Positions 8,640 to 63,891 of a stretch of 64,000 nt of DNA are shown here, piece after piece (the stretch's first letter is position 1; every line of letters starts with the position of its first letter). A program made the translations under genes and the position numbers. Below the pieces are notes generated by a model. It worked only from the letters and a program-made list of their open reading frames with translations. It was not told the origin of the DNA and did not search any database. Source of the stretch: Deroplatys truncata (lineage: Eukaryota > Arthropoda > Insecta > Mantodea > Mantidae); contig CM060984.1 of NCBI GenBank assembly GCA_030765065.1, positions 103,459,488 to 103,523,487 of the forward strand, read 5' to 3'.

Positions 8640-8783
8640 ATAGGGGCTGATAAGTGGGGGAACATAAGTGTCATTAGTCCTAAAATGACCTGCATAACGT
8701 CCTCCAAACAAAACACGACTAAGAGCATTTACTTTCCTCCATAATATCAAGCAACTTTTATTAAAGACATTTCTTTCTACAAC
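8640..8783 (-). repeat. Dispersed repeat Y, left flank of NUMT
   Basis: Reverse complement of the Y copy at 1.1 kb: blocks GTTGTAGAAAG and GATATTATGGAGGAAAGTAA are shared. It continues further than the first copy into GC-richer sequence. Confidence 0.65.
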
Positions 8784-8944
8784 GCTTGGTTCTTTAAGAG
8801 ATAAAACAGTTAAAAATATTAATAAAATAATGAATCCTAAAACATCTTTAAATGTGAAATAAGTATGAAAAGGAATTTTATCAATGTTGCTATTGGTTCC
8901 TAAAGGATTGTTTGATTCAGTTTGATGAAGAAATAGCAAGTGAA
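8784..8944 (-). pseudogene. NUMT: cytochrome b fragment (mitochondrial DNA in the nucleus)
   Basis: The minus strand reads as an open stretch of about 53 codons of mitochondrial cytochrome b, the haem-binding subunit of respiratory complex III. Visible hallmarks are [36 protein letters not shown] and SLKEP, all in family order and corresponding to the middle of the ~380-residue protein, including the conserved HLLFLH histidines. Differences from the usual motif (SNNP is normally preceded by TG, here TE; PFHP reads PFHT) fit decay after transfer. It has no start or stop of its own and sits inside repeat Y; the uninterrupted Y copy at 1.1 kb fixes both edges to within a base or two. It is a dead nuclear copy, not a gene. 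Confidence 0.92.
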
Positions 8945-9005
8945 TTAGTTTTGGAGATATTGTACTGTCTCAACTTAAATGGTCCACCATGTTTATGTAT
9001 AGTTT
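8945..9005 (-). repeat. Dispersed repeat Y, right flank of NUMT
   Basis: Reverse complement carries TGGACCATTTAAG and ATATCTCCAAAACTAA, as in the Y copy at 1.07-1.10 kb. Confidence 0.7.
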
Positions 9006-9602: not shown

Positions 9603-10458
9603 CAATCTGATGTGTTACACTCACATGACTTTCTCTACTCTTGTACAAACTATTTTTACAAACGCTCATTCTCCATATGCTTCATGTTAATCAAGATATC
9701 GAGATGTTAATCTTATTGCTAATTTTCTTGCAGATGCAAGGGGAATTGGTAGGTTTTAAGCGATAGTCAAATATTTTAAGAGCTGGTTGCTATGTGGAGT
9801 ATTCCATTCTCTTTGCATTACCAGGACAAAAAAAATGAATAACGAATTTGAGAAAAAGTATAAGTATTGGAAAATTTAAGGGAATAACATGCAATAGGTA
9901 TCTCGAAAATGGTTCACTCAACAAAAAAAAATGTATATAACATAAATTGTATAGTTTAACGCGATCTACATTTTTTGTGTAGTAACATTTTGTCTATCTC
10001 TTATTTACCGGTTATGCAAAAGTCGTTCAAAATGAATACTTTTGGAGACATTCCCAGAAAATTCAAGATATACATTTTATTTGTCATGAAAATATCTTAA
10101 ACATATGATATTTTAATCAAAATCGTTAGAGCCATTTTTGAGAAAATTAAAATTTTCGAAAAATGTTCTATGTAAAGGGTAATCTGCGGTGCGGGATTTT
10201 CTTGAAAACCTTCGTGTCGCATCTCTGGAAGATACTGAACCTAAATACAAGTTTTGTGTCTATCCAACTGTTCGTGTGTGAGTTATGCTTTTCACAGACA
10301 GACAGACAGACACACACACACACGGACGTGTTTCCAAAAATGCTTTATTTTGGATTCAGGGGGTTACAAAACATATTTCCGGTGAAATCTCGGTATCGAA
10401 TTTTTGGGTGGAATACAATACTTCCCCTACTTACTATACGTAGTAGAGAAAGTAAAAA
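9603..10458 (-). repeat. X repeat, full-length, younger subtype (X5)
   Basis: A complete reverse copy of 856 bp: AATCTGATGTGTTACACTCA at the left, GTAGTAGAGAAAGTAAAAA at the right. It is very similar to X12, X15 and X18, which defines the younger subtype. In the middle is a short (AC)n/(ACAG)n tract. Short ORFs inside it are not conserved among copies. Confidence 0.9.
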
Positions 10459-19818: not shown

Positions 19819-21098
19819 TACAAGGCATGTTTTTAAAGTAGATACCGTTTTAATATTTCGCCACTGCAGCGCTACAGTCGCGCGATCGCTTCCCCCATTC
19901 ATTAGGAAGGCAGATATAGCTATGTGCGATCGTCATTTTGTGTTTTCCTGTTGTTAGAGCGTTTCGAAATGTTCAAAACAATCGAACGATCCGCCGACTG
20001 TGAAGTCAGATGAATGATTTGTTTTTTGAATGCGAGAAATGTTATGTCAGTATGCATTCACCGCTAATTGTGCGAGGTTTATGGGGAAACAATACTGAAT
20101 AATAGAATGGTGTGTAATGGATTAGACAGTTTAACGCAGGTCGTGAACATGTGCATGACGAGCCGCGGAGCAGTCGAGTCTGCGACCACGGTCGCACAAT
20201 GTTTTGGTGCAAGCTGTGGAAGAAAACAATTGGAGGACAGAGGTTTCATCATATCGGTGTTATCTTTGCATTTTCCACAAGTTTCAGGTCAGTACACTAC
20301 AACAGTGTGACAGAACGCTTAGAATTTCGGAAATGGTGCTCAAGTTGGATGCCCAAAAATCTTACTCATGACCACAAGAACAAGCGATATGCAGAGGAAG
20401 GCGATGATTTGCTAAGGTACATCGTTACAGGTGAAGAGACATGGGTATCTCACATCGCTCCAGAATCAAAGCAACAATCCATGGAGTGGAGGCACACAAC
20501 ATCCCCGTGAAGAAGAAATTCAAACAGACGATATCCGCTAGCAAAACCATCTGCACGGTTTTCTGGGACAGACAAGGTATTTTGCTGGTTGAATTCTTGC
20601 CCAGGAACGCAACAATCAACAATGACGTCAATTGTGAGACACTACGAAAGCTCCGTCGTGCAACACAGATCAAAAGGCATGGAATGCTTTCGTCGCGTAG
20701 AATCCTTTTTGTTCATGACAATGCCCGGCAACAAACAGCCAAACAAACTCAAGATTTGATCGCATCATTTTATTGGGAACAATTCGATCACCCTCCCAAC
20801 AGTCCGGATTTAGCACCAAGCGATTTTCATCTGTTTCTTTATCTGAAGAAATTCCTTGGTGTAAAACACTTCAACAATGATGATGTGAAACAAGAGGTGG
20901 AGACCTGTCTTTCATCATAAGCGGCATCATTCTTTGACGAAGACATAACTGGTTTCCCTTTACGACAAGTACCTGAATAACGACGGTAAGTATGTGGAGA
21001 AGTAGTGTAAGCTAATAAATGATAATAAAGTATTTGGAAAATAATGTGTTATTTTTTTAAAAGAATTATCGTTGTTTACTTTAAAAATACGCCTAGTA
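19819..21098 (+). mobile_element. mariner-family DNA transposon, full length, inactive
   Basis: A 1.28-kb element with imperfect TIRs of about 29 bp. The left end reads TACAAGGCATGTTTTTAAAG and the reverse complement of the right end TACTAGGCGTATTTTTAAAG. Both ends carry the TA target dinucleotide. Size, TIRs and the D34D transposase it encloses fit mariner. The right TIR mismatches the left at several positions and the transposase is broken, so this is an old, immobile copy. Confidence 0.9.
19969..21005 (+). pseudogene. mariner transposase pseudogene (D34D type)
   Basis: Translation from the ATG at 19,969 begins with the family text ERSADCEVR. It continues through LCEVYGE, VHDE-like MHDEPRS, LEFRKWCSSWMPKNLT, VTGEETW, QSMEW, TVFWDRQGILLVEFLP, FVHDNAR and NSPDLAPSDFHLF to LVSLYDKYLNNDG and a stop at 21,003-21,005. 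The second and third catalytic aspartates (HDN and PSD) are present with exactly 34 residues between them. The first is replaced by glutamate (VTGEET for VTGDET). Several frame changes and stops lie in the N-terminal third and near the C-terminus, so no active cut-and-paste enzyme can be made. Family mariners run about 345 residues, matching the span. Confidence 0.9.
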
Positions 21099-28477: not shown

Positions 28478-28782
28478 TAGGAAATTGGTGGCGACATTCG
28501 TTGTAAGCCATGTTATTCGTCACTCCTTACGTAATCTGGTATTCCTACAAACCTTACACAATTTCACTTTGTCTTTTTACTTCACTTTAGCTACTTTTTC
28601 ATTGCTTCACGAGATTCCGTTAGTCGCAATTTTTTTTATCACATTGGCGCTAACTGCTTATAAAATATCCACCATCGCTAAGCGGTCGCCAAGTAGGGCC
28701 CAATATTATGAATAAATTAACAATTCCTGCTACTTTTAGAAGTCAGCACACTACACAATCGAGTCTACATATAAAAATCTGC
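28478..28782. other. Unassigned spacer between X11 and X12
   Basis: Nothing recognised. Confidence 0.45.
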
Positions 28783-29608
28783 TGTGCTCGGCTCACATGA
28801 TCTTCTCTACTCTTGTACAACCTATTTTTACAAACGCTTATTCTTCATATACTTCATGTTAATCGAGATGTTAATCTTATTGCTAATTTTCTTGTAGGTG
28901 CAAGGGGAATATGGCTTTAAGCGATAGTCAAATCTTTAAGAGCTGGTTGCTATGTGGCATATCCCATTCTCTTTGTATGTCCAGGACAAACAAATGAATA
29001 ACGAATGCCTATTTGAGTAATAGTAAAAGTATTGGAAAATTTGAGTGAATAACAAGCAATATCTCGAAAATGGTTCACTCAATAAAAGAAATGTATATGA
29101 CATAAATTGTGTATTTTAACGTGATCTACATTGTTTGTGCAGTAAAATTTTGTCTTATCTCTTATGGTTTACCAGTTATGCAAAAGTCGTTCACAATGAA
29201 GAATACCTTTGGAGACATTCCCAGGAAATTCAAGATGTACATTTCATTTGTCATGAAAATATCTTAAATATATGACATTTTAATCAAAATCGTTAGAGCC
29301 ATTTCTGAGAAAATTAAAATTTTCGAAAAATGTTTCATGTGAAGGATAATCTGGGGTGGGGGATTTTCTTGAAAACCTTTGTGTCGCATTTCTGGAAGAT
29401 ACTGAACGTAAATACCAAGTTTGGTGTTTATCCGACTGTTCGATTCTGAGTTATGCTGTTCACAGACACACACACGGACATGTTTCCAAAAATACGTTTT
29501 TTGAATTTAGAAGGCCTCAAAACATACATTTTCGGTGAAATCTCGGTATCGAATTTTTGGGTGGAATACAATACTTCCCATACTATACGTGGTAGATAAA
29601 GTAAAAAA
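28783..29608 (-). repeat. X repeat, near full-length, younger subtype (X12)
   Basis: Left end AAAATCTGCTGTGCTCGGCT, right end GTGGTAGATAAAGTAAAAAA. It is closest in text to X5 and X15. Confidence 0.85.
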
Positions 29609-30990: not shown

Positions 30991-33790
30991 TTTTTTATTT
31001 TATTTTATTAACACTTCCCTCAATTAAGGGCTGCCATATAGACAAAGTATACCTATACAATTAACAAATTTAAATTGATAACAATAATGGCGAAGTTAAC
31101 ATATCAAAATAATGAAAATCAACTTAAAATAGAAATATAATGAATTTAAATAGGAACAGAAAGTGGAATAAACAATCCTATTATGCAGTTAAAATAAATA
31201 AATATATAATAATTCATTAATTTCAATGATTTGTAAAGTGGTATATCAATATTATATTGAATTAAAATGATTTCTGAGGATGAGAATTGATCCTCTAATA
31301 GCCATGATTGCTATTTGATAAAGTAGGCGTTTATCTAGGGCATAATCTACCCAAAACTTGTGTAGATTTTTGGGTATTGTCTCTCTAGCTCCTATCATCA
31401 ATCCTGTGACTGAGGTTTTATTTAAATTGTATATATCCTTGTAATAGGAGATAGGGGTTCATAAATGCCTTTTTACCTGCGTCTACTTCTTCGGGCTGTT
31501 GACAGTGGGATTCAAAGCGCACAGTAGAATCAATGATTAACCCACTACTGTCAGATGATGTCGATGCGCCTGCTGCCACCACTGTTGGATAATCCATATA
31601 CCTCCTCGTGGACCTGAAAACCTTTTTCCTTCATACCTGCCATCACACTTCTTATTTTGTGATGTCTGCTGTTTCGCAGCACTTCTCCGTGGGCAACACC
31701 CAGAACGTGTGCAAGGGTTTCGTGCTCTCTGCCACAACGGCGACAGAGGGTATTGTTCTGGGACCTCCGTGGTAAGGAGCGTACAGCAATAACTCCAGCA
31801 GTCATTTTGATGGCATCTCCCCATTCAGAGCAAGAAAGTCCGCGTTGATCTCGGATCCATTTATTAGCAGGTGTGCGATCGCTGAACATTTTAACTCCTC
31901 TTCCTTTGTGCGGTAATTCGCTCCAAAGTTGCAGATGTCTCAGATGTCGTCTTACTTTCCTTGCATCTGGGAGAAGGCTTACAGGATCTCTGATGTCTTT
32001 TGAGTGATGTTGAGGAGTCGTAAACAGTTTTGAGTTTCTTGATCAAAATCTCTTACAATGTTAACAAGTGGGTCCTTGAAGCATTTTAGAACTTTGCAGA
32101 TGTTTATACGTGGGAATCTAACCTCCCATGAGGCGCAGAATAGACCAAGGCCTTTATAGTTTCTTTCAGAGTGTACCATATGGTCTGGAACGTCCGTTGG
32201 TAACAGTAAAATGTTTTTAAAGTGCATTTTAAGATTTTGTTAGCATCAGTTAAACCTTTTTGTGTAATTTTATCCATTGGAATAACTTGAAACGGATAAA
32301 TTAATGTCGTTGAGATGGATGAGCTTAGAACAATACATTTCTGGTCTGCTTGTAACAGGGGTGAACTTTCTAAAGTTTCAGCTTTTTTACGTAACTTTTC
32401 TAAAGTTTGATGACTGCCAAAAATTATTTCATATTTTAAGTTGATGCCTAGGTAAAGTATTTTCTCATCAGTGTTTTGTCAGTGAATTTCATTATCTGCA
32501 GAAATCATAATATTATTAGGAGAATGTTTTCCATTTCTAATGGATAAACAAATAGATTTTGATGTATTGATGGCGAGACGGATTTCTTGAAAACGTTGTA
32601 TTGTTAATTTAGTTAATTCTTTTGCTCCTTCCAATTTTTTCCCAATGATCACGGTATCATCTGCGAAACTCATAATTGTTAAATTCTGACAATTTGAAGC
32701 CAACGATTAACCATATTATTCAGACCAAAATGGCACACTGAGCTCTTCCATAGTTGCTAGATTGTAAAGAATAGGAGATATAGGTGAACCCTGTAATACG
32801 CCCCTTTTTATTTCTATCTGATTTGTTTTACTGCTATTGGTTTCAAATATTGTGGTGTTATTTTCTTGTAGACTCATAATTAAACGTGATAATTTGCTAG
32901 GAACACCAATGAAATCTAGTGTTTTGTGAAGATGTAAATGACCTATGTTATCGAAGGACTTTCTTATATCCAGAAACACTATAGTTATATTGTCTTTTCT
33001 TTCTTTGGTAGATTTTAGAGCCGCATTGGGAATGGTAGTTTTGATGCGAGTTCCCGGGGATGGTGTAAAGCCTCGCTGATAAGGGCTTAAGGTTATATAA
33101 TTACGCAATCTACGGTCAAGTCCTCTTTCAATAATTCCAGATTCTAGCATTCTGGTAGCTATTTTAGCAATTATTTCTGAAGCCAGGTCATTCTTAATTG
33201 TTCTCATCAACACGTGGTCAGGACCGCTAGCCGTATCAATCGATATACTTCTCATTGCATTATTTATTTCTTCTTTGGAGATTATTGTATTAAAGGTGTC
33301 GTTTATTCCTGTTAAATCGATATTACTGATTTTCTGAGAATATTCCTGTAAAAATTGATCATTTGTTATAGAAAATATATTTTTAAAAAAATCCTGTATT
33401 GTGTTACTATTCAGTTTACAGGTTATGTTATTTTCGTTAAAGACATTTCCAACTGCTTTCCTTCTTTGATTATAGTAGTAATATTGTGTTATTTGATATT
33501 TATAATTTGATTTTCTTTTTAATCTCTCTCTTTTAGTCACCCTTTCAGGATTAGTTGAAGTTTTATGCGAGCGCTGTGTTTGTATAAACCTTTTTGTTTT
33601 TCCTTGCCGCATAGTATTTTGCAGCGGGATGTTTAGGACCTGGTAGCACATGAATAACATCTGATAGAAACGAAAGAAAATCTTTTACTGTTTTATGAAA
33701 GCCGTCGTTACCTAACTCAGGTGAGTATTTTTCTTTCCAAGTTTGTAGTTGCTTGCTATATTCGTTCAGCTCATACAAGCTCATGCTTCC
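30991..33790 (-). mobile_element. R2-like LINE (restriction-like endonuclease type), 5'-truncated and decayed
   Basis: A minus-strand non-LTR retrotransposon. Reading order: conserved pre-RT segment, reverse transcriptase, thumb, CCHC zinc knuckle, restriction-like endonuclease, about 260 bp of 3' UTR, and an A-rich tail. The tail is the reverse of TTTTTTATTTTATTTTATTA at 30,991-31,010. R2 elements of insects sit in 28S rDNA; no rDNA is recognised here, so this is a member of an R2-like lineage with other target preference or a stray copy. N-terminal zinc-finger/Myb domains were not seen, hence the 5' truncation. Confidence 0.85.
31252..33784 (-). pseudogene. R2-like RT/endonuclease polyprotein remnant
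   Basis: 33,784-33,563 carries HPAAKYYAARKNKK; the next frame gives QITQYYYYNQRRKAVGNVF. RT motifs follow: TASGPDHV, SPYQRGFTPSPG, VFLDIRKSFDNIG (catalytic Asp), RGVLQGSPISPILYNLA and, after two in-frame stops, MSFADD at about 32,656-32,667. The thumb reads LPTDVPDHMVHSE and YKGLGLF. The zinc knuckle reads CRRCGREHETLAHVLG with WIRDQRGLS before it. The endonuclease reads GGSRRIDII, then after a frame change GLIIDSTVRFES, QQPEEVDAGKK, and TGLMIGARETIPK down to a stop at 31,252-31,254. All catalytic motifs of the RT are visible, but several stops and frame changes make it dead. Confidence 0.85.
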
Positions 33791-49585: not shown

Positions 49586-49748
49586 AAAAAATCTGATGTG
49601 TTACACTCACATGACTTTCTCTACTCTTGTACAAACTATTTTTACAAACGCTTATTCTCCATATGCTTCATGTTAATGGAGATATCGAGATGTCAATCTT
49701 ATTGATAATTTTCTTGTAGATGCAAGGGGAATATGGTAGGTTTTAAGC
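49586..49748 (-). repeat. X repeat, younger subtype, first part (X15a)
   Basis: AATCTGATGTGTTACACTCA at the left; the X body is interrupted at TTTTAAGC by the LTR retrotransposon and resumes at 55,724. Confidence 0.9.
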
Positions 49749-50798
<1,050 letters not shown>

Positions 50799-50799
50799 T

Positions 50800-50824
50800 T
50801 TGGCGCCCACTACGTTGGGGCTCG
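50800..50824 (+). other. Primer binding site, tRNA-Lys-like
   Basis: TGGCGCCCA and GGGGCTCG, separated by a few extra bases, match the complement of the 3' end of insect tRNA-Lys; the site starts two bases after the LTR. The extra bases make the tRNA assignment tentative. Confidence 0.6.
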
Positions 50825-51169
50825 AAATACTGCCAGCGGATAACGCACCCGGAGAACCGACAACGGAAGGAAGACGACGCCGATGACGACATCAGCAACC
50901 ACCAGCAGCAGAGTGTACCGATAGACGTAGGGCAACAAGCGACATCGACGCCGCTCCATTACAACGAGGAAGCAGACATTCAGCGCAGACAGCATCAGTG
51001 TTCAAAAAGTGTAAGTGTAGTGAAGTGTTTTGTGAACTATTACAACACTTCGCAGCAGCTCAACCCAGCACCGAGTAAGTGTTAACTGCATGATACATAG
51101 GTTAATAAAATTTTGGAAGGGAGTGTATATGCAATAGATATAAGTAAACTGGGTTATGTATGTTTGTAA

Positions 51170-53458
51170 ATGCTGTTAAGAAACAAGAAATTAACCGGCA
51201 ACGATATGGAAGGTAATAGCAATGAACAAGGGGAAAATTTCACTAACAATAGCACGCGGGTAGGTGTAGAAAATGGAGATATCGAAACATTAGAACACCA
51301 AGTTACCGGATCACTTAACGCGAGCGAAATGCTGCAACAAATGTTGGCTCAATTGAGCCTCCTAAACACTAAAATATCAGAACAAGAGCAAACACTTGGG
51401 CAAACACTGACTCAACGATTATCAGAACAAGAGCAAACACTTGGGCAAACACTGACTCAACGATTAACAGAACAAGAGCAAACACTAACTCAACGATTAT
51501 CAGAACAAGAGCAAACAATAGGGCAAACACTAACACAGCGATTAACAGTACAGGAGCAAACACTAAAACAACAATTGTCCACCCAAGAACAAACATTGCA
51601 GCAGCAGATAGCCTCACAATTAAGCATCCAACATAAGGAAATCAGTCAGGGCTTAGAAAATAAAATACAGGGTGTCTTGTTAGAAATTAGAGCAAGTCAA
51701 AATGTAATCTACGAGGATGTAGAACATATAAGAAACGAACTAAAAGCAACACAGAATAGTGTAGAGGTAGTAAGGAAGGAACTTGTCGTGGAAATAGACG
51801 CCATCAGGGCACAACAAATTGTAAGCAATGAAAACTTAATATGTACAATTAGTGATAAGGCAAGGGAAGAAGCAATGACAGTCTGTGTAGCATTACAGAA
51901 TAAGCAGCAGGCAGTGGAAGCAGGGGTAAATGATAAAATTAACAAAATAAGGGAGACCATAGAGGCACAGAATAGCTCGCAGATAAGCGAGATCGCTAAA
52001 TTAAGGGAGGAACTGACACAGACCGTCAATGCTCGCAGGGACGCACTAGCGGAAATCGAACCGCGACCCCAGGGAGCCACGGACGCGCGAATTACCTCTC
52101 AGGTTTCCGCGCTTTCGTCGTTCCAGTGTAACAACCCGAGTAGCGAACCGAGGTCGAACGAACCTGCCTGCACTCCTTCGGCCTCACCGCACCCGGCAAG
52201 TGAAATGTCAAGCACCGTAGGGCCTCTGCAACAATGCAATATACCTATACAATTTTTGAATGAACTGCCAATCCCCAAGTTCAACAGTGAAGTCGATAAT
52301 GCGAAGCAGTTCATTAATGACCTCGAATCTTATTTCGCGCTTAGGGGAATTCCCGACCGTTACAAAATGGTAATTATAAAAAGGAGCTTGATAGGCCCGT
52401 CCCTGAGTTGGTTTCGATTGACGGTAGGCGAGCATGCACAATATGAACATTTTAGGTCTGCATTTTTGGAAAAATATTGGAGTGGCGTTGCACAGTACAG
52501 AGTGCGCGCAGAAATAAATAATGGCCGATACAGGGATGAGAAGCGTGAGTCGATGGTTGACTACTTCTTGCGACTCGGCCAATTAAGCCAACTCCTGGAC
52601 CCACCGATGCCCGAAGGTGAATTTGTATCCCTCCTGACACGACACTTCCCAGACGTTATACGTCATCACCTCGTGGTAGCACGCCCGAGGACGCTGAGCG
52701 AAGCCATTGAACTACTTACCGCTCTGCAGGGGTACGGAACGCGGGAAGAAGATAGGCCCAGAATCAGGACTGAAGGCAGACACAGTGATCGGATAAATTC
52801 GCATCGTAATGATGGGACGAGGGCACAAGGTGCGTTGAACAACTACTCCACAGTCCGACAGCGTTATCAAGAGCCATTTGCAAGAAATCGGGAGAGAAGC
52901 TATAGGCCCTGGAACCAAACGGGCACGGGTAGGCCACCGAGGCAACATGAGGAGTATCCCGTTCACTACCTGAGATTCTCCAGGTACCCGGCGAATAGTA
53001 GACAACACTGGGGAAATAACCTCCACGGTGGAACAGCGGACAGGCCAAGAACGCCTCCGAACCGCCCAGAAACTCCCCCGAACCGACCTGGAAACACCCC
53101 GGGCAGGCCTAGGACACCTCCGAACAGGCCAAGAACGCCTCCGAATTGCCCAGAAACTCCCCCGAACAGGCCAAGGACACCTCCGAACAGGCCAAGAACA
53201 CCTCCAAGCCGGCCAGCGACCCCACGACATAGAGATGAGGACCATGGGCTCTCAAGCATGCCTACGTACAGCTACGCATGGACGCCGAGCGCGTATCTAT
53301 CACAGACACGACAGCCGCAAAATGTCCACCGCGAAATGGATGACGCGATAGGTCACCGAAGCGGGGCAATGGCAGGACAAAGTATAGGCCAATGGATAGG
53401 CCCCAGTCAAGGATCGTGGCCACGACGGTCGGAAAACTGGAGACAGGAAGAATTGTAG
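51170..53458 (+). CDS. gag-like ORF of the LTR element
   Basis: 762 codons, apparently whole. Order: a short acidic N-terminus; a glutamine-rich tandem repeat (about residues 70-145) of a ~15-residue unit such as EQEQTLGQTLTQRL, predicted coiled coil; a longer helical region; then a retrotransposon-gag domain (about residues 360-525) with PIPKFNSEVDNAKQFI, GPSLSWFRL and FRSAFLEKYW. The tail is basic and proline-rich with repeated PPNRP units. No CCHC zinc knuckle is visible; the Arg/Pro-rich tail may bind RNA instead. Gag proteins of this type assemble the particle in which reverse transcription occurs. The start was taken at the first ATG of the frame; ATGs slightly downstream are possible. 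Confidence 0.85.
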   Translation: MLLRNKKLTGNDMEGNSNEQGENFTNNSTRVGVENGDIETLEHQVTGSLNASEMLQQMLAQLSLLNTKISEQEQTLGQTLTQRLSEQEQTLGQTLTQRLTEQEQTLTQRLSEQEQTIGQTLTQRLTVQEQTLKQQLSTQEQTLQQQIASQLSIQHKEISQGLENKIQGVLLEIRASQNVIYEDVEHIRNELKATQNSVEVVRKELVVEIDAIRAQQIVSNENLICTISDKAREEAMTVCVALQNKQQAVEAGVNDKINKIRETIEAQNSSQISEIAKLREELTQTVNARRDALAEIEPRPQGATDARITSQVSALSSFQCNNPSSEPRSNEPACTPSASPHPASEMSSTVGPLQQCNIPIQFLNELPIPKFNSEVDNAKQFINDLESYFALRGIPDRYKMVIIKRSLIGPSLSWFRLTVGEHAQYEHFRSAFLEKYWSGVAQYRVRAEINNGRYRDEKRESMVDYFLRLGQLSQLLDPPMPEGEFVSLLTRHFPDVIRHHLVVARPRTLSEAIELLTALQGYGTREEDRPRIRTEGRHSDRINSHRNDGTRAQGALNNYSTVRQRYQEPFARNRERSYRPWNQTGTGRPPRQHEEYPVHYLRFSRYPANSRQHWGNNLHGGTADRPRTPPNRPETPPNRPGNTPGRPRTPPNRPRTPPNCPETPPNRPRTPPNRPRTPPSRPATPRHRDEDHGLSSMPTYSYAWTPSAYLSQTRQPQNVHREMDDAIGHRSGAMAGQSIGQWIGPSQGSWPRRSENWRQEEL

Positions 53459-54170
53459 CGTTCCCAGGCTCAACCTCGGAGAATGCGCGCAGGTTCTCGC
53501 ATTACACAGGGAACGAAAACAAAAATACCAGAAGAACCATTTTTATTGAATATTTGCACATTGGGAAAAGGCATTAACGTGGTAAGAATTTTCACGCAAC
53601 AACTGTGCGAAGGGAGAGATCTTAACGACACGCCTCTGCAGTCAGCTGATGAATCGGAAGTAGGTCAAGCACCCCAGTATTGTGAGTTAAACACAGAAAA
53701 TGAAAATGTTTATTTCGGTGAGAGACCGGACGACTTGCAGGTAGTCAGTGATCAAAACATGACCCTATCAGGTATACGCGAATATGTAGCATCAACAGAC
53801 TGCTTAAACCATCAAGAGAAAGAAGGAATACAGACGTATGCATATGTGTTGGAAAGGTCCTTATCGGATATCACAAACCTTCGGGGACAGGGTATTTCAA
53901 CTCCAACAGTTAAGGACCGGGAAAATAATCGGTAGGTACCATCTATCATTGATTCGCCCATTCAAGCAGGATCAAGGAAATTTAGTAGAGTCGGATAGGG
54001 AAAATGTACAAACGCACTCGGAACACCAGTAAGAAAAGTCATAGTATGCGAACATTGTTTACAAACAAATTGGTAGCTTTGGGATAGCAATGTCCTGTTA
54101 AAACCGTGTGCTTGACATTCACGATGTTAATGACATACAGTAAGAAAACCGAACAGAATGTATACCTGGC

Positions 54171-54262
54171 AAAAAAAAAAAAAAAAAAAAAAGGTACCAA
54201 AAGGTGTCTTGAGTGTGGAGGCTGCTAATAGCTTCAAGAAAACCAGCATTGTATGTAATGTG

Positions 54263-54318
<56 letters not shown>
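54171..54318. repeat. Poly-A run and (GA)n microsatellite inside the LTR element
   Basis: 22 A at 54,171-54,192, then (GA)n at 54,264-54,318. Both lie in the element's 3' interior. Confidence 0.9.
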
Positions 54319-54321
<3 letters not shown>

Positions 54322-54721
54322 TGGAACTAAGATGTGTAATTAAAAAAAAAAAATTATTGTTTGAAGAATGTATTGTGTGTATAAGCAGATTTCTTAAATG
54401 TAAATGTTTTGTAGCCTGGTTGTTGACGGCCAGATACTATGTAGATTGTTTTTCTTTTACTTGGTGAAAATACTTGTGTAAATTTGAAATTGTATTGTGT
54501 ACAGTGATTGAAATGTATTGTGAACAGAATAAATGTGTAACGGTGGGCTCGCCATCAAATCGTCGTAAGCCACTGACTAAAAAATGAATGAATAAATAAA
54601 TAAAATGATAAATGAAAGGAATAGAGGGAGAGAGGGACTTTAGATTAGCTTAGATGGGACATTAACGATAAACCCATCATCCAACCTAAAGGTCCGATGA
54701 TAAGTTTACCGTCAGGGCATA

Positions 54722-54748
54722 TGAAGCTGGTTATCGAGACCCAGGAGA

Positions 54749-54806
<58 letters not shown>

Positions 54807-55723
54807 TACGATCGAACATAGCGACGAAAATGTGCTGAATTCATGTTAGGAATGGGTTTTGGAGGAAAGACAGAGAAACAAAGTTTGCTCCCTCGAAGCA
54901 GAGGTATTTTACCTGCGATGGTCAACGAACCTGCATACCGGAAGCCTCGCCTTTATACTTTTGGCTCGGACAGGGTTTACAACGGTTCCCAAGGCTTAAA
55001 AGGGTGAGGAAGTAGATGTGCCTTATCTACGATCTAAGAATGTTCGGGGGAAGATTTTAAAACTCAAAATAAGCTGTAAGAGGCAGATGTGAAAGTTGTC
55101 ACGTGGGGGTAGCCAATAACAAAAAAAAATCATGAAACAAAAATTATAGCCAATCGAAAGATCGCGTAGGCATCATATGATACGTTTGAACTTAAAACAG
55201 AACGAAACTTAAGAAAGGGAGAGGGGAAAATTCTAGAGTTTTGGCGAAAGGCGTGAAGGAGGAAAGACACGCCGAGACTAGTCGGGTACAAACTAACCAT
55301 GACAACGGCCGAGGCACATTCCGGTACAAATTAACCACGAGGACGCGACGAAACAGAATTAGAACAAAATAATCAGAAGATTAATAGCGTAAAAGTGAAG
55401 TTGTGAAATCTAGGCAATTCGAGGGCTAGTCGGAGAAACACATAAGTAGCGACTTCGAGAGTAATAAGAATAACAGTGGTTTCGACGACGAAGGTGGCGG
55501 GTTGACCAGATAGGAATCTACGTAACAAAATAAAGATATCACCCAAACTTCTCCGGCAGTATTATTAATCTCATCAAGGCAGTGTCACCACCCCTGAAAA
55601 ACAAGAACCTCAGCTCTACCGAATCAAATCCCAAATCCCTGCCATCCAAACCACGAACCCAGGACTCTGAGTACACTGAAACAACTGCCAGGAACAATAC
55701 AGATGCGTCAGAGGTCAGCGTCA
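54722..55723 (+). repeat. Right LTR of the gypsy-type element
   Basis: 1,002 bp with the same ends as the left LTR; (AAT)n at 54,748-54,806; AATAAA at 55,529. Almost identical to the left LTR outside the microsatellite. Confidence 0.92.
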
Positions 55724-56451
55724 AAGCGATAGTCAAATATTTTAACGCTGGTTGCTATGTGGCGCATTCCATTCTCTTTGCATGTCCAGAACATAAAAAA
55801 AATGAATAACGAAGTTGAGAAAAAGTATAAGTATTGGAAAATTTAAGGGAATAACAAGCAATATCTCGCAAACGCTTCACTCAACAAAAGAAATGCATAT
55901 GACATAAATTATGTATTTTAACGCGATCTACATTTTTCGTGTAGTAAAAGTTTGTCTATCTCTTATGGTTTACCAGTTATGAAAAAGTCGTTCATAATGA
56001 AGAATACTTTTGGAGACATTCCCAGAAAATTCGAGATATACATTTTATTTGCCATGACAATATCTTAAACATATGATATTTTAATCAAAATCGTTAGAGC
56101 CGTTTTTGAGAAAATTAAAATTTTCGAAAAATGTTCCATATAAAGGGTAGTCTGGGGTGGGGGATTTTCTTGAAAACCTTCGTGTCGCATCTCTGAAAGA
56201 TACTGAACCTAAATACCACGTTTGGTGTTTATCCGACTCTTCGTTTTTGAGTTATGCTGTTCACAGACACACAGACACACAGACACACAGACACACAGAC
56301 AGACACACACACACGGACATGTTTCCAAAAATGCTTTTTTTGGATTCAGTGAGTCTCAAAACATGTATTTCCGGTGAAATCTCGGTATCGAAATTTTGGG
56401 TGGAATACAATACTTCCCCTACTTACTATACGTAGTAGAGAAAGTAAAAAA
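55724..56451 (-). repeat. X repeat, younger subtype, second part (X15b)
   Basis: It resumes at AAGCGATAGTCAAATATTTT and ends CGTAGTAGAGAAAGTAAAAA. Together with X15a the copy is about 886 bp once the 4-bp duplication is discounted. A (CACAGA)n tract lies at 56,264-56,314. Confidence 0.9.
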
Positions 56452-62140: not shown

Positions 62141-63008
62141 TCATTTGTATATTGTACAAGTGCGGAAAGGATATCTTTGCAGAACGAGGAAGAAGTTTGA
62201 AAATACAAAACGAAGTCGAGCAAAGCACTGTATTGTATACTATTTTTTTCGACGTTTATAGATAATAGAAATGCTTACTCAAAAATAAAATTAATCACTA
62301 TCAGCTGTTCAAAAATAGTATCAAGGTCACCGTAGCATCTGTGAGCTGGTGATATATTAGTCGCGTCTGATAATTTGACCAAGTCAACAACCAAAGGTGA
62401 CATGGTTGCTTACGCCGAAAGAGTTATATTTAAACGCTGCATAAATTAAATCGTAAGCAAATGTTAACAAATAGAGGGAAGTAAAGACGGTAAAATTCAA
62501 CCATCAAAATGATTATATATGTTTGGAACAATTAATATACATATCAGTAGTTGACATTACCTATAAATAAAAGAAAGGTTCATAGCATTTAAGGATATGA
62601 AACCATAAGAGCAGAAATAGTGCTTGAAAATAAGATAACAGAACAGGTTAATGTATTCAATTACATGTTATAATATAACATATACTACGAATAATGATAT
62701 AGATGTAAAACTAAACAGATATAGACATCTATGTGGTACAATAGTACGTGAATTGAAAAATATAGTTAGGAAAGAAACTAGTGATAGGACGATACACTAT
62801 ATCTCGATAGTCGATACTGGTACCGATACTGATTTTTGAGCACCGATAATCGATACTCATTTTATAAATCCTGTAAAGGCAATAGCTTATTCACCTAATT
62901 ATGTTCTTATTAGTGGTGTTCTGTGTATAAACGCATGTAACCAATTTTGTATTGCACGCTAATTTTGAAATTGTTCCTGTTTAAGATTCTCCATTTGGGA
63001 GCATTTCT
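62141..63008. other. Unassigned AT-rich sequence
   Basis: Nothing recognised; ACTATATCTCGATAGTCGATACTGGTACCGATACTG-type short repeats near 62,796-62,860 are low complexity (GATA/GATAC units). Confidence 0.45.
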
Positions 63009-63891
63009 TTTTAATTTCTCTACTACGTATAGTAAATAGGGGAAGTATTGTATTCCACCCAAAAATTCGATACCGAGATTTAACCGGAAATATATGTTTT
63101 GAGGCCCCCTGAATCCAAAAAAAGCATTTTTGGAAACATGTCCGTGTGTGTGTCTGTGTCGTATGTGTCTGTATGTGTCTGTGTGTCTATGAATAGCATA
63201 ACTCAGAAACGAACAGTCGGATAAACACCGAACTTGATATTTAGGCCAGTATCTTCCAGAGATGCGACACGAAGGTTTTCAAGAAAATCCCCCAACCCCG
63301 TATTACCCTTTACATCGAACATTTTTCGAAAATTTTAATTTTCTCAAAAATGGCTCTAACGATTTTGATTAAAATATCATATGTTTAAGATATTTTTATG
63401 ACAAATAAAATGTATGTCTCGAATTTTCTGGGAATGTATCCAAAAGCATTCTTCATTGTGAACGACTTTTGCATAACTGGTAAACCATAAGAGATAGACA
63501 AAATTTTACTACACAAAAAGTGTAGAAGTGTGAAGTGTTAAAATACACAATTTATGTCATATACATTTTTTTTTGTTGGGTGAACCATTTTGGGGATATT
63601 GCTTGTTATTCGCTTAAATTTTCCAATACTTAAACTTTTTCTAAAATTCGTTATTCATTTTTTTGTCCTGGTAATTCAAAGAGAATGGATACTCCACATA
63701 ACAACCACCTCTTAAAAATATTTGACTATCGCTTAAAGCCTACCAGTTGCCCTTGCATCTGCAAGAAAATTAGCAATAAGATTGACATCTCGATATCTCG
63801 ATTAAGATGACGCATATGGAGAATAAGCGTTTGTAAAATAGTTTGTACAAGATTAGAGAAAGTCATGTGAGTGTAACACATCAGATTTTTT
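63009..63891 (+). repeat. X repeat, full-length, younger subtype (X18)
   Basis: The best forward copy (883 bp). Order: TTTTTAATTTCTCTACTACG; GTATTCCACCCAAAAATTCG; a GT-rich tract; CGACACGAAGGTTTTCAAG; CGATTTTGATTAAAATATCA; AACTGGTAAACCATAAGAGA; CTCGATATCTCGATTAAGAT. It ends GAGAAAGTCATGTGAGTGTA followed by ACACATCAGATTTTTT. It has no ORF. An inverted pair ACTTTCTCTAC / GTAGAGAAAGT lies at or just inside the ends; no transposase was seen, so a non-autonomous DNA element (MITE or Helitron-like) is the working guess. Confidence 0.9.

Follow-up and report, generated by a model that had tools for sequence, protein, structure and literature searches.

A short mitochondrial-type cytochrome b segment in a repeat whose uninterrupted copy lies on the same contig

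A segment that reads as cytochrome b lies inside a repeat (here called Y) on a contig of Deroplatys truncata, and a second copy of Y is found close by. This raises the questions of where the segment came from, by what route it entered the repeat, and whether the second copy shows the site as it was before the insertion. The window referred to below is the whole stretch of DNA analysed (64,000 nucleotides), and all positions are those of the window.

The cytochrome b segment

The segment occupies 161 bp at positions 8784–8944 and is on the minus strand, though the base at 8784 is possibly part of Y, which would shorten the insert to 160 bp. The minus-strand frame from 8944 to 8784 consists of 53 open codons, from HLLFLHQT to LKEPS, with no stops under either translation table 1 or table 5 (standard and invertebrate mitochondrial). 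Several stops are present in each of the remaining two minus-strand frames, and also in the one plus-strand frame that was translated.

A query of 56 codons (8784–8951, minus strand), made up of the 53 codons of the segment and three from the upstream flank, was compared to PDB sequences using phmmer, and 43 distinct sequences were matched at E values up to 1. The best match (E 2.5e-17) covers residues 194–247 of a cytochrome b, and, going by their names, 36 of the sequences are cytochrome b chains (E 2.5e-17 to 0.19), the remaining seven, which are the weakest (E 0.43–0.94), being unrelated proteins. A Pfam search at E values up to 1 returned a sole family, PF13631 (Cytochrom_B_N_2), at E 4.4e-7, above the cut-off. 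Hence, the cytochrome b segment reported in the first-pass annotation, which gave no strand, is real.

The interrupted repeat and its uninterrupted copy

The segment interrupts a copy of Y that lies on the minus strand. In the sense of the cytochrome b frame, the first part of this copy (8945–8986) is upstream of the segment and was aligned by BLASTN to 1059–1100 (92.9 % identity, 42 columns), and the second part (8728–8783), also located by BLASTN, is downstream, with 8728–8791 matching 1095–1157 at 89 % over 64 columns. The other copy, at 1059–1157 on the plus strand, runs without a break through a join at ACTAA/GGTTGTAG, and its match in the minus-strand copy falls into two pieces with E values of 1.3e-17 and 3.5e-12. 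When the insert is removed and 8784 is counted as part of Y, 90 of 99 columns are identical and there are no gaps. The earlier claim that an empty site is preserved in the window is therefore upheld, the site being a paralogous one. Two of the nine differences between the copies are transitions, and the divergence is 9.1 % (Jukes–Cantor distance 0.097).

The pairing of the two copies was also examined using ungapped comparisons. The left 40 bases of the uninterrupted copy match at 37 of 40 positions in the second copy, the next best place in the window giving 27/40, and the right 58 bases match at 51 of 58 positions, with no more than 60 % identity elsewhere in the window. The flanks of the segment are thus nuclear and not mitochondrial, as Y is found on both sides of it and also occurs elsewhere without it. 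Beside the uninterrupted copy, at 1170–1329, there are short inverted arms (1170–1222 against 1329–1279) that share 77 % identity over 53 columns (E 4e-5).

The two Y copies, by themselves, are silent on which state is older, and we infer that the insertion came after the copies had separated. One filled and one empty copy would fit equally well with a history in which the insert entered an ancestral Y and was multiplied with it, the copy at 1.1 kb then representing an insert-free lineage, and in fig wasps NUMTs that were duplicated along with flanking DNA have been described (PMC7600805). However, a search of the 64 kb window using a profile of the two copies found neither a second filled copy nor any third copy of Y (the other five hits have E values of 2.6–9.3), Y is alignable over only approximately 99–120 bp, and the copies differ at 9 % of positions; this history is considered unlikely. 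It is very improbable that the cytochrome b segment was original to Y and was deleted from the copy at 1.1 kb. Though two copies alone cannot polarise the change, such a deletion would need to have been exact to about 1 base at both ends to leave Y gapless. We hold it to be just as improbable that the assembly is chimeric, with a piece of a mitochondrial read joined into a nuclear contig, as the resumption of Y at the very next base would not be expected; a weaker point against a chimera is that the E and T replacements in the segment, described below, hint at decay.

Source of the segment

In order to find relatives, an alignment of the window segment with three PDB stretches (A1) was used as the query in a scan of genome_contigs, which yielded 354 candidate stretches, 321 of them encoding relatives. 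The best 80 of the 321, all filed under bacterial titles, were compared with the segment. Four of these 80 (L001–L004) stand apart, sharing 30 (L001), 33 (L002), 32 (L003) and 31 (L004) of the 53 residues in an ungapped comparison in which the next among the best 80 shares 18. Their ungapped BLOSUM62 scores are 171–184, with the other 76 of the best 80 at 88 or less, a measure that penalises indel-bearing sequences such as the bacterial L008 and L024. In gapped tblastn searches L001–L004 still lead, by a narrower margin (E 6e-17 to 6e-14 versus 4e-13 for L005). At the nucleotide level, 104 of 159 bases are identical to the segment in both L002 and L001 and 101 in L003 (L004 was left out of this count), and in 1000 codon-shuffled controls of L002 the identical bases averaged 48 and never exceeded 68. 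No cytochrome b relatives were found when viral_contigs was scanned with a single protein and with A1.

The PDB and Pfam matches, together with the ranking of L001–L004 over the other 76 loci, point to mitochondrial DNA, and the source of the segment was very probably a mitochondrial-type cytochrome b from an animal. Bacterial cytochrome b is homologous, as the 321 relatives illustrate; L005 comes near to L001–L004 in gapped searches, and L008, titled Rickettsia, is 60 % identical over residues 2–41. However, the best four loci match without gaps, and both L008 and L024, the two translations inspected among the other 76 loci (together with eight 53-residue rows), carry two additional residues ahead of IPFH (ISFH in L024) that are absent from the window, and an origin from a bacterium, e.g. 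a Rickettsia-type endosymbiont, instead of a mitochondrion is hardly credible.

L001–L004 are filed as Herbaspirillum, Emticicia, Micavibrio and Lentisphaerae and contain a mitochondrial-type cytb with adjacent genes, recognised from their translations, with tRNAs located by ARAGORN in L002 and L004. Judged by this gene content, they appear to be mitochondrial contaminants of bacterial assemblies. In L002, nad6 and cytb are on one strand, followed after cytb by tRNA-Ser(UGA), and nad1 is on the opposite strand (the three protein genes were recognised by eye from translations), an order which we take to be the ancestral arthropod order. L004, with tRNA-Glu and tRNA-Pro around cytb, resembles vertebrate mitochondrial DNA. 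The Q in the HQT of the segment is common to L002, and E is found there in L001, L003, L004 and the three PDB rows. The first-pass annotation expected the segment to identify the host. Nonetheless, the arthropod-ordered L002 (33 residues) is hardly nearer to the segment than the vertebrate-looking L004 (31 residues), and the identities to the references are too close to rank, singling out neither arthropods nor any order. A tree of so short a segment (53 residues) with just these four mitochondrial-type references would not place the host.

Junctions and mode of insertion

The joint in the uninterrupted copy reads CCAAAACTAA / GGTTGTAG and in the interrupted copy CCAAAACTAATTCAC ... GAACCAAGCGTTGTAG. 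The insert is either 160 bp with one adjoining substitution or 161 bp with one target base lost, and the placing of the joints decides whether the target is otherwise intact to about 1 base or includes a near-duplication of 4 bases (CTAA on the left and CCAA on the right). The left junction, CTAATTCAC, makes good cytochrome b as well, L002 having ATAATTCAC at this position, and L001 and L003 do not include ATAATT there. Up to three or four bases at the left junction (TAA or CTAA) may represent shared microhomology when compared with L002 only, and as the chance of a shared run of at least 3 bases at one junction is approximately 0.07 (mitochondrial base frequencies being assumed), TAA by itself does not reach significance. 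At the right junction, CCAAGCGTTG is similar to CTAAGGTTG of the uninterrupted copy, which blurs the boundary. Because of these short matches (CTAA on the left, C-AAG on the right), the junctions can be resolved to about 3–5 bases only. They are readable, though the first-pass annotation, which placed the breakpoint within a base or two, was somewhat optimistic, and its statement that there is no obvious target duplication holds for a clear or long one, a tiny one being possible if the CTAA/CCAA near-duplicate is counted.

We consider it highly probable that the segment arose by end joining. A fragment of approximately 160 bp from the host's own mitochondrial cytochrome b would have been the donor, and would have been ligated into a double-strand break within one nuclear copy of Y by non-homologous end joining, possibly assisted by microhomology, after which it would have drifted as a NUMT that is presumably non-functional. 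The marks of end joining are present: the junctions are simple, neither a long target-site duplication nor a poly-A tail is seen, and little of the target is lost. End-joining capture, as had been suggested from the sequence, fits these and the gapless Y; it is from these features that we infer repair of a break.

The primate numts captured by non-homologous end joining are similar. Microhomology of 2 or more bases was recorded at 53 of 152 numt fusion points and no chromosomal bases were lost in 49 of 90 insertions (PMC2567098), and the segment studied here is like them in its absent or minimal loss of target and in possible microhomology at one end. Repair both with and without microhomology is described in a review, which gives junction microhomologies of 1–7 bp (PMC2820518). 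The nature of the empty site differs, as in the primate work it is the locus in a related hominoid genome (PMC2567098), whereas the site studied here is read from a paralogous copy of the repeat that is 9 % diverged. The same logic, in which an interrupted element is aligned to its family, underlies the study of repair-mediated duplications, where an ancestral consensus was used; however, the inserts treated there are chromosomal DNA in vertebrate elements (PMC2671141), and here mitochondrial DNA is found in an unnamed repeat with two copies.

Age and decay

If the insertion followed the separation of the two Y copies, it can be no older than their divergence (9.1 %). The open frame had been read as a sign that the insertion was recent, and this reading did not survive a simulation of neutral substitution that started from the present segment without indels (4000 runs per point). 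At 2 % divergence 89 % of runs still had a stop-free frame, and the share fell to 74 % at 5 %, 52 % at 11 % and 32 % at 20 %. As a short fragment is often free of stops at 10 % divergence, the open frame is compatible with a wide span of ages, and dating from it was rejected. In insects, 2,816 of 8,423 COI NUMTs have neither indels nor stops, and 978 of these are 151–300 bp long (PMC10249859).

Two residues of the segment are unusual. In HQTE, the E replaces a G that is found in the three PDB rows and in L001–L003, L004 likewise having E. In FHT, the T is found where the three PDB rows and L001, L002 and L004 have P and L003 has S. From these comparisons, the two replacements hint at decay after transfer without dating it.

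Other features of the window

Further mitochondrial pieces were sought in tblastn searches using the long mitochondrial frames of the 3-kb loci L001–L003, which leave most of a mitogenome uncovered. Six hits were obtained at E values up to 0.1. Three are the cytochrome b segment (E 3e-17 to 1e-15), two are at the same place on the opposite strand (E 7.7e-4 and 0.009), and one is near 53.5 kb (E 0.082). No RNA genes were found in the window by Rfam at the gathering threshold or by ARAGORN with the bacterial code, which may miss mitochondrial tRNAs.

A young-looking LTR-type element lies at 49749–55723 (plus strand), with terminal repeats at approximately 49749–50798 and 54722–55723 that have one mismatch in 975 aligned columns and a difference in the length of an AAT run. 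Its ends are TG...CA, there is an apparent target duplication of 4 bases (AAGC), and its insertion site lies within a copy of a different dispersed repeat. Pfam gives a single sub-threshold match, a weak one to Phage_Mu_Gam (E 0.0019), for an ORF of 762 aa (51170–53458), and none for two frames of 158 aa. The element may be non-autonomous and without pol, because YxDD and CCHC were not found by simple patterns in the six frames of its interior. Within the 762 aa ORF there are tandem 21-base units like CGAACAGGCCAAGGACACCTC at 53037–53246 (plus strand) and a second repeat array at 51355–51633.

A large dispersed repeat family is represented at 9604–10458, 28776–29584, 49590–49732, 55724–56450 and 63008–63838, in both orientations, and the pieces reported are approximately 60–97 % alike. 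An open frame of 322 codons at 32719–33684 (minus strand) includes a reverse transcriptase domain (PF00078, E 5.7e-13), and another at 20435–20917 (plus strand) includes a partial DDE transposase domain (PF01359, Transposase_1, E 8.7e-15).

Significance

The core interpretation, a short NUMT in a repeat, is very probably right. Such NUMTs are known from insects, especially from orders with large genomes, where short fragments of single mitochondrial genes are likewise found in the nucleus (PMC10249859, PMC4204883). One of these studies gives 30 % of insect COI NUMTs as under 150 bp and 71 % as under 300 bp, with averages per species, for COI NUMTs of at least 100 bp, of 140.6 across five Orthoptera and 84.0 across five Blattodea (PMC10249859); the present case, in which the gene is cytochrome b, does not differ from these in any substantial way.

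The NUMT is thus an ordinary one, of a kind that animal genomes commonly contain, and the approach of reading the empty site off an interrupted repeat has been practised before on other repair insertions (PMC2671141). Wider consequences would follow only if copies of Y in the genome prove to carry the insert. It is conceivable, but improbable, that Y is still multiplying and that the filled copy founded a subfamily which would be spreading a piece of cytochrome b as part of a mobile element. The only special merit of this locus is that a sister repeat on the same contig shows the site as it was before the insertion, and a second genome is not needed.
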